From a virus, in the IMG/VR virus record IMGVR_UViG_3300015261_000001, positions 174,194 through 238,193 of that record: DNA of 64,000 bases. One strand, given 5' to 3'. Position 1 is the stretch's first letter, and each line of letters begins with the position of its first letter. Shown piece after piece: positions 58,477-63,829 of this stretch. The translations under genes were made by a program, and so were the position numbers. A model generated the notes under the pieces. It was given only the letters and a program-made list of their open reading frames with translations. It was not told the origin of the DNA and ran no database searches.

Positions 58477-58511
58477 TACCTACCTAGCCCCTAATAGGGG
58501 CTAGGTAGGTA
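58477..58511 (-). terminator. Rho-independent terminator
   Basis: TACCTACCTAGCCCCT/AGGGGCTAGGTAGGTA, 16-base-pair stem. Leftward tail ATGCTTTATGCCGCTTTTAATTT. Three bases past the stop at 58514. Confidence 0.82.
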
Positions 58512-58513
58512 GT

Positions 58514-58942
58514 TTACTTGGTTCCGTACGCTTCATTACTGAAAGACAACTGCCTTCCACCCCAGTTAGCAAACAACTGGCGAGCCTTCAACTGATCGTA
58601 CTCATCGAAGTCATAAGTCAGAGACATATGAGGAAGATACGCATCGAAGCCGTGAATATAGCCAGCTTCTTTCAAACGACGGTGTTCGTCGGCCAACATC
58701 TTGCTGGTCAAGTGGAATACCAGACCGTCACCCAGTACTTCTAACGAAACCACGTTGGCAGTGAAGACTTCGTTAGGACGCAGTTCTGCCAAAGGTTCTG
58801 GCAACTTACGTTTGTCGTACATGAGGGTGCAATGCAGATTGTGTTTGGACAGGGTAATCCCGTTGTTCAGCAGAGTGTCAAAAATCTCCTCCACTTCTGG
58901 GCCCACCAGCATTACATCTACGTAGCCGTTGTTATTCGCCAC
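58514..58942 (-). CDS. 2H phosphoesterase, Acb1-like (putative anti-CBASS)
   Basis: 142 residues from a GTG at 58942 that overlaps the upstream stop by 11 bases. Two 2H-superfamily motifs: LHCTLMY with H37-x-T39 and PHMSLTY with H105-x-S107, spaced 68 residues, like the anti-CBASS nuclease Acb1 of T4 (H44/T46 and H113/T115). The segment EHRRLKEAGYIHGFDAYLPH before the second motif also resembles Acb1, which cuts cyclic nucleotides that trigger CBASS. An alternative is a 2'-5' RNA ligase or cyclic phosphodiesterase of another subfamily. The second motif has Ser in place of Thr, which this superfamily tolerates. Near a DHH phosphodiesterase gene. Confidence 0.86.
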   Translation of the reverse strand: MANNNGYVDVMLVGPEVEEIFDTLLNNGITLSKHNLHCTLMYDKRKLPEPLAELRPNEVFTANVVSLEVLGDGLVFHLTSKMLADEHRRLKEAGYIHGFDAYLPHMSLTYDFDEYDQLKARQLFANWGGRQLSFSNEAYGTK

Positions 58943-59102
58943 CTTCAGCCACCTTTTCTTTTCTGCGTCCGATGTTGACAGAAACGATTGTTCTGCCGTC
59001 CTTGATTTTGGCGTACAAACGCGTCATCGCAGCGGCCTGCGTTTCCGTCTTAGCCATCTTGGACATTGAGCTAATGAAACTTGGATTTAGTTTGCGGCTC
59101 AT
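58932..59102 (-). CDS. 56-residue protein, mini-family C member 1
   Basis: Short frame from the ATG at 59100-59102 after GAGGGTG. Its C-terminal half (AMTRLYAKIKDGRTIVSVNI) resembles the next two genes upstream, QRIKTGTTLVIVRV and GRLQDSRTLVKIEV. Its stop overlaps the start of the Acb1-like gene, so the two are translationally coupled. Function unknown. Confidence 0.72.
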   Translation of the reverse strand: MSRKLNPSFISSMSKMAKTETQAAAMTRLYAKIKDGRTIVSVNIGRRKEKVAEGGE

Positions 59103-59171: not shown

Positions 59172-59330
59172 TTACTTCACTTTGTAACGGGGATTGCTCA
59201 CCCGTACAATCACCAAAGTCGTACCGGTCTTGATACGTTGATGCAGGCGATAGGCAGCGGCGCGTGCGCTGTCAGTACCTACATAACCGATGCCGCATTC
59301 AGAGATTTCCGCGAGGTATTGGCTTTCCAT
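59172..59330 (-). CDS. 52-residue protein, mini-family C member 2
   Basis: Short frame from the ATG at 59328-59330 after AAGGA. The sequence SARAAAYRLHQRIKTGTTLV, then I-V-R-V-S, matches both neighbours; the shared core is A-A-x-R-L-x-x-R/K-I/L-x-x-G/S-x-T-L/I-V. Immediately followed by a strong terminator. Function unknown. Confidence 0.72.
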   Translation of the reverse strand: MESQYLAEISECGIGYVGTDSARAAAYRLHQRIKTGTTLVIVRVSNPRYKVK

Positions 59331-60056: not shown

Positions 60057-60971
60057 TTATTGAAAGAGGTTGCCGGATCCGAGACCCAACCAGCCTTTAA
60101 TACGACGCCACCAGTAATGCTTGGAGCGCAAGTACAGATGGGAATTCTTGAAGCGACGATCAGTGAATTTGATCTTGAAACCAGCTGCCGCCGGATGACC
60201 GCCACCACCGAACCGTTCTGCCAGCAGATTCACCGCAAAGCCGCCCTTACGAGAACGCATGGAGAATATGCGACCATCAACCGTGTCAGTGTAGATCACC
60301 GCACCCAGATGCCCTTCAGAGAGCTTGGTACCCAGATCAGAGGCAAAGAAACTGTTGGCGTTGACCACCGGGAATAACAACCCGTCAATGATCATGGTCC
60401 GAGCGCTTTTGGCGATCTTTTCAACGTCTTGAGTGTTCTTGCGATTCAGGTAGAAACCTTCACTGCACACACTGTCAACACCACGGTTAATGAGACCGTC
60501 GAACGCCTCAACACAGAACGGGTAGCTGAAAGCAGCCATGGTCCATTCGCGTGTTTGTGGAATCTTCCACTGCCACAGATCCCGATCTTGCACGATTTGT
60601 ATTTCGATCGGTGGTTTTACGTCCGGGAAGAAATAACGCCACGCCAACATTGCACCGGAGTAATTCTCATCAACCAGCACATGACCACGCAGCTTAGTGA
60701 GGTCCAGTCTTTCAAACTCACGCGCCGCGGTGTCGTGGTGATCCAGCAGAACCAAATCACACTGACTGTCAATCACCAGCAGCATTTCAGCCTTGAAGCT
60801 GAAGTCCAGCACGTACATCCGACGACCGCCGTAAACCGGAATAGGGTCGCCATACTGAATGGCTTGCAGGTCAATTTCACCATTGTGGGCTTTCCACGCC
60901 ACCCATGCCGCGGCAATGCCGTCGAGACAGTTCTTGTGGTACAGGCAGAGCGGACGTTGATCAGAACTCAT
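60057..60971 (-). CDS. DHH-DHHA1 family phosphoesterase
   Basis: 304 residues, full length for the family. DHH part: YHKNCLDG (Asp17), VLDFSF (Asp56), LLDHHDTA (Asp77, His78, His79) and VQDRDLW (Asp129/131). DHHA1 part: RFGGGGHPAAAGFKI (residues 253-267), the usual GGGGH nucleotide-binding loop. Such enzymes cut short oligoribonucleotides (nanoRNase), pAp or cyclic dinucleotides with two Mn ions. In a phage it may recycle RNA fragments or destroy signalling nucleotides; its neighbour 1.1 kb away is Acb1-like. The C-terminal 40 residues are basic and unusual. Overlaps the upstream stop (ATGA). Confidence 0.93.
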   Translation of the reverse strand: MSSDQRPLCLYHKNCLDGIAAAWVAWKAHNGEIDLQAIQYGDPIPVYGGRRMYVLDFSFKAEMLLVIDSQCDLVLLDHHDTAAREFERLDLTKLRGHVLVDENYSGAMLAWRYFFPDVKPPIEIQIVQDRDLWQWKIPQTREWTMAAFSYPFCVEAFDGLINRGVDSVCSEGFYLNRKNTQDVEKIAKSARTMIIDGLLFPVVNANSFFASDLGTKLSEGHLGAVIYTDTVDGRIFSMRSRKGGFAVNLLAERFGGGGHPAAAGFKIKFTDRRFKNSHLYLRSKHYWWRRIKGWLGLGSGNLFQ

Positions 60972-63757: not shown

Positions 63758-63783
63758 TAAATTTCTCCTATTGCGTTCAAAAT

Positions 63784-63820
63784 AATACCCTCCCGGACTG
63801 ATTAGGTCCGGGAGGGTATT
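63784..63820 (-). terminator. Rho-independent terminator
   Basis: AATACCCTCCCGGAC/GTCCGGGAGGGTATT, 15-base-pair perfect stem; leftward tail ATTATTTTG. Ends the gene stopping at 63830. Confidence 0.88.
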
Positions 63821-63829
63821 AGCAGGATG

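Follow-up and report, generated by a model that had tools for sequence, protein, structure and literature searches.

Acb1 enzymes are a means by which phages destroy the alarm molecules of bacterial CBASS. Enzymes with related 2H folds target RNA ends and other 2′,3′-cyclic phosphates, and for CPDase and LigT the substrates are ADP-ribose cyclic phosphate or RNA ends. In Acb1 of phage T4, the catalytic tetrad is formed by H44, T46, H113, and T115, residues Y12, W74, F107, and W147 provide stacking, and E141 contacts adenine (Hobbs et al. 2022, PMC9117128). The pocket of T4-type Acb1 has room for two or three bases only, and the nine further Acb1 homologues tested in the same study all cleaved 3′3′-cGAMP and cAAA (PMC9117128). 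Structures have also been solved for Acb1 of Erwinia phage FBB1 (PDB 7t26, 7t27) and for the Acb1/phosphodiesterase of Burkholderia phage BCSR5 (PDB 9q2g, 9q2y), the latter with both open-lid and closed-lid states deposited. CBASS III-C gave >10^5-fold protection against a phiKZ-like nucleus-forming phage (PMC10889362), and such phages therefore have reason to carry a countermeasure. A 2026 review named Tad1 as the sole anti-defence protein described so far in jumbo phages (PMC13282480).

Here, we analyzed a stretch of 64,000 nucleotides (the window) with which a 238,193-bp virus record ends. The virus is a large phage with kinship to Pseudomonas phage EL. One of the window's genes encodes a protein that, although divergent, clearly belongs to the Acb1 family and has a 2H fold. 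Its membership is established by profile, fold, catalytic tetrad, two stacking aromatic residues, and a conserved position in EL-type jumbo phages.

Family assignment and predicted structure

The window protein (142 aa, GTG start, read from 58942 down to 58514) was matched by the Pfam profile of Acb1, PF23474, with 53 bits, well above the cut-off of 27 bits (52.1 bits in the genome scan). All 15 homologues in alignment A1 matched the same profile. When profiles were compared with solved structures, BCSR5 Acb1 was the best match, and the solved Acb1 chains still came first (9q2g, 3.9e-5) with a profile of four EL/RisingSun members only. The window protein was matched by none of the RNA ligase domain families of Pfam, by neither the LigT_PEase nor the 2_5_RNA_ligase2 profile up to E = 1, and by no model of NCBIfam or PADLOC. 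In PHROG, it belongs to a family named "RNA ligase" (phrog_755). Because T4 gene 57B, which is Acb1 itself and the founding member of the family, is likewise labelled RNA ligase in RefSeq, this name is uninformative. The ATP-grasp RNA ligase implied by the PHROG name was rejected, since the protein has a 2H fold and no match to an RNA ligase family, and its record has no PF09414 match. Across phage records, Acb1 homologues are widely annotated as RNA ligase, putative structural protein, or prohead protease.

The AlphaFold model of the window protein, computed from 12 aligned sequences of the window and of related loci, had a pLDDT of 90.7 and a pTM of 0.85. In the Foldseek comparison with the PDB, ranks 1 to 5 were all Acb1 chains of BCSR5 and FBB1 (E from 8e-7 to 7e-6), with BCSR5 again as the best match. 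Arabidopsis CPDase came next (2.5e-4), followed at lower rank by an archaeal 2′-5′ RNA ligase-like protein (7e-3), E. coli LigT (9e-3), and a poxvirus cGAMP phosphodiesterase (near 1e-2). CPDase and LigT have the 2H superfamily fold in common with the window protein, but their fold match is weaker than that of Acb1. Among viral models, the best match was the RisingSun protein (TM 0.91), which carries the UniProt name Anti-CBASS protein Acb1. The structural comparison, on which the earlier note had made its claim refutable, placed the model nearer to Acb1 than to LigT or the archaeal 2′-5′ RNA ligase-like protein, and the claim withstood it. The core claim of that note, an Acb1-like 2H phosphoesterase and candidate anti-CBASS protein, is borne out by PF23474, by the profile match to solved Acb1 chains, and by the fold.

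That claim had been based on two H-x-[TS] motifs lying 68 residues apart, and both are exactly in place in the translation (Table 1). The spacing of 69 quoted for the T4 pairs H44/T46 and H113/T115 is correct as well (PMC9117128; alignments). The segment before the second motif fits (GFDAYLPH105 in the window protein, DFDDYTPH113 in T4 Acb1). The total length is 142 aa, compared to the 152 aa of T4 Acb1, whose C-terminal lid is among the residues that the window protein lacks. However, motif spacing was rejected as stand-alone evidence, because it arises by chance in several ORFs. A pair of H-x-[TS] motifs 60–80 residues apart was found in 7 of the 205 window ORFs of at least 90 aa, and in three of these seven, the Acb1 ORF included, the pair was 67–70 apart. 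After shuffling of the window Acb1 protein, the corresponding frequencies were 1.7% and 0.3%. The Acb1 call goes beyond chance because of the profile match to Pfam Acb1, the conserved homologues, and the fold.

Table 1. Coordinates of the Acb1-family gene, its aligned active-site residues, and neighbouring features in the window
Feature	Position	Strand	Basis or remark
Acb1-family 2H phosphoesterase	58514..58942	-	PF23474 4e-14; phrog_755 1.5e-25; AlphaFold; Foldseek
First catalytic motif, H37-C-T39	58826..58834	-	Translation; aligned with T4 H44/T46
Second catalytic motif, H105-M-S107 (HxS, compared to HxT in T4)	58622..58630	-	Translation; aligned with T4 H113/T115
Y7, equivalent of base-stacking T4 Y12	58922..58924	-	Alignment
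F99, equivalent of base-stacking T4 F107	58646..58648	-	Alignment
17-bp perfect inverted repeat, 1-nt centre	58477..58511	.	Begins 2 bases past the Acb1 stop
56-aa mini-protein gene	58932..59102	-	11-base overlap with the Acb1 start; functional link putative at most
52-aa mini-protein frame	59172-59330		Related to the 56-aa protein
DHH/DHHA1 phosphoesterase (phrog_4771)	60057-60971

Active-site residues and the jumbo-phage branch

The window protein is 19% identical to T4 Acb1 (alignment A1) and resembles T4 and FBB1 Acb1 in the 2H fold, in the catalytic tetrad (H37, T39, H105, and S107), and in the equivalents of Y12 and F107 (Y7 and F99). Unlike these two enzymes, it has HxS in motif 2, Leu at the position of W74, no clear E141, and no W147 with its C-terminal lid; the last three differences count against the Acb1 reading, as does the action of related 2H enzymes on RNA ends and further cyclic phosphates. 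Ser at this position of motif 2 is usual across the 2H superfamily. In the alignment, which is uncertain at the C-terminus, Gly140 of the window protein stands opposite T4 E141 and E137 opposite E138, and E137 might take the place of T4 E141.

Residues were compared in an alignment of 25 proteins, composed of 13 members of the jumbo-phage clade and 12 others. All 13 jumbo-clade homologues, the window protein included, have the HxT/HxS arrangement and lack an equivalent of W147. Their W74 column holds Leu in 11 proteins and Met in two, and their tails extend only 2–6 residues beyond the E141 column. The short tail of the homologue in L019, a 226,773-bp metagenomic phage record (IMGVR_UViG_3300009011_000002), contains a Trp. 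In contrast, all 12 other members, among them the T4-type and Burkholderia/Achromobacter-type proteins, have HxT/HxT and Trp or Phe in the W74 column. The 13 jumbo homologues form one side of a branch with an ultrafast bootstrap of 85 and an SH-aLRT of 97.

The BCSR5 protein is longer (165 aa) than the window protein, and its relatives from BcepSauron and Motura retain HxT/HxT and W74. These two proteins also lack E141 and W147, and W147 is therefore not family-defining. Because the close relatives of BCSR5 lack both residues and the BCSR5 structures show a lid, the loss of E141 and W147 is compatible with Acb1 function. Judging from the alignment, the HxT/HxS jumbo clade with almost no C-terminal lid may differ from T4 Acb1 in substrate range or affinity.

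Genomic position and neighbouring genes

No phage DNA record was matched when 24 kb of the window were searched with megablast. At the protein level, the nearest relatives of the window Acb1 are in the Elvirus EL phages, which one record places in Chimalliviridae. Identity was 67–71% to EL-type phages (68% to EL), 47% to RisingSun, and about 27–35% to Vibrio, Photobacterium, and other jumbo phages. EL gp126 (YP_418159.1) and gp120 of the Erwinia phage RisingSun (YP_009612864.1), both named RNA ligase in RefSeq, belong to the same family and differ from the window protein by ordinary sequence divergence only. Searches matched 669 phage records with the window protein and 1499 with T4 Acb1. When IMG/VR was scanned, neither the single window protein nor the Miami protein gave a match, and alignment A1 was too diverse as a query; narrower alignments gave results. 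An Acb1 homologue is present in the jumbo phage Hallingskeid, yet the dbAPIS search of one study reported no hit there. Profile A1 also matched residues 480–594 of the Pam3 portal protein (PDB 8hds, 4e-8), which suggests a virion-borne 2H domain in that protein.

Acb1 was present in all five records compared (the window's, EL, L019, RisingSun, and pTD1), with RNase H upstream in each. In the window, EL, and L019, it lies between this RNase H and a downstream protein of 404–506 aa whose C-terminal part is conserved. Gene content in the interval from RNase H to Acb1 varies. The homologues in EL, RisingSun, and Vibrio jumbo phages are found at the same genomic place. Acb1 is 68% identical to its EL counterpart, compared to 57% for RNase H of the same block, which argues that Acb1 is under constraint.

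The Acb1 gene probably ends a transcription unit, because the 17-bp inverted repeat starts directly after its stop codon; on the minus strand, this repeat has no clear T run. Another perfect inverted repeat, with 16-bp arms and a 7-nt loop, lies at 63783–63821. Among the neighbours, the earlier note had listed a coupled 56-residue protein, two related mini-proteins, and a DHH phosphodiesterase. The coupled frame, the kinship of the mini-proteins, and the DHH gene are all real, but the product of the coupled frame is one of the two mini-proteins and not an additional protein. These two proteins (56 aa and 52 aa) are 39% identical over 33 residues. No match to the 56-aa protein was found among phage records, and the sole relative of the mini-proteins that was found, a relative of the 52-aa protein, adjoins Acb1 in L019. 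The mini-proteins would be a small family of orphans in this phage group. The DHH protein of the window is 45% identical to EL gp125, which has an extra N-terminal stretch of ~110 residues. A 93-aa protein beside the DHH gene of the window was unrelated to this stretch on comparison. GXNNE2-like records annotate relatives of the DHH protein as methyltransferase.

Proposed function and alternative explanations

The window gene probably encodes an Acb1-family nuclease that destroys the cyclic di- or trinucleotides of CBASS. By analogy with T4 and FBB1 Acb1, the 2H fold would seat such a nucleotide over the two His-x-Thr/Ser pairs, and the ribose 2′-OH would attack the 3′-5′ phosphodiester. A 2′,3′-cyclic phosphate intermediate would form and then be opened. 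The CBASS second messenger would in this way be linearized, and the suicide effector would stay off. For the window protein, we infer catalysis, substrate, and CBASS protection.

A role in RNA-end healing, with the 2H phosphodiesterase opening 2′,3′-cyclic phosphates on cleaved tRNAs for ligation, was proposed for jumbo-phage 2H proteins by Iyer et al. 2021 (PMC7824862). The PHROG family name and the rank of Arabidopsis CPDase as the next fold match after Acb1 are in line with this role. We nevertheless consider it improbable, as T4 Acb1 has the same RNA ligase label and the model resembles Acb1 more closely than it does LigT or CPDase. Moreover, searches with positive controls detected neither a PF09414 nor an RtcB RNA ligase in the window's record or in four related phage records, which makes RNA repair less likely. 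This absence covers PF09414 and RtcB; the search for PF09511 (T4 Rnl1), which had no positive control, was left out. A different kind of alternative is that the protein is related to Acb1 but has been retargeted to another immune nucleotide, either a larger cyclic oligonucleotide or an ADP-ribose-type signal (e.g., that of Thoeris), a change that the loss of the lid and of T4 base-stacking residues would allow. This alternative falls within the Acb1 reading as a sub-case with another substrate, and its probability overlaps that of the main explanation. It draws on the uniform absence of W147, the Leu or Met at W74, and the HxS motif in the 13 proteins on one side of the branch, and on the T4-type pocket, which fits two or three bases only (PMC9117128). 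However, the lid of BCSR5 is seen open and closed although its nearest aligned relatives lack E141 and W147, so T4-type lid residues appear dispensable for a lid. Retargeting is rather unlikely on present evidence, and it is with the same reserve that we regard a substrate range of the lidless HxT/HxS clade other than that of T4, such as larger cyclic oligonucleotides or another immune-nucleotide class.

The earlier note had also proposed that the neighbouring genes could form a counter-defence cluster. In such a local module, the DHH protein would finish the linear products and the mini-proteins would act as partners. The DHH gene was found in two of the five records, adjoining Acb1 in EL and lying a few genes away from it in the window. 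However, it had no match in the L019, RisingSun, and pTD1 records, all of which carry Acb1 (in L019 with a similar order of the genes around RNase H and Acb1), and other types of Caulobacter and Vibrio phages also have relatives of it. The mini-proteins are missing from three of the four relatives' records. Because Acb1 is constant among these records and its supposed partners are not, the cluster is unsupported, and we regard a module of this kind as highly improbable.

The Acb1 family is already known, and UniProt already names relatives of the window protein Acb1. In searchable papers, no description was found of this protein, of the lidless HxS jumbo proteins as a clade, or of the steady position in EL-type genomes. 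The PHROG label "RNA ligase" conceals anti-CBASS candidates in several hundred phage records. If the lidless clade does have another substrate range, nucleus-forming phages bear a broader or distinct signal-destroying enzyme. Signal-based immunity is the kind that a protein shell cannot exclude, and the nucleus of a phiKZ-like phage does not save it from CBASS III-C (PMC10889362). The retention of Acb1 at a single genomic place across the EL, RisingSun, and Vibrio jumbo lineages would account for how such phages could survive this immunity.
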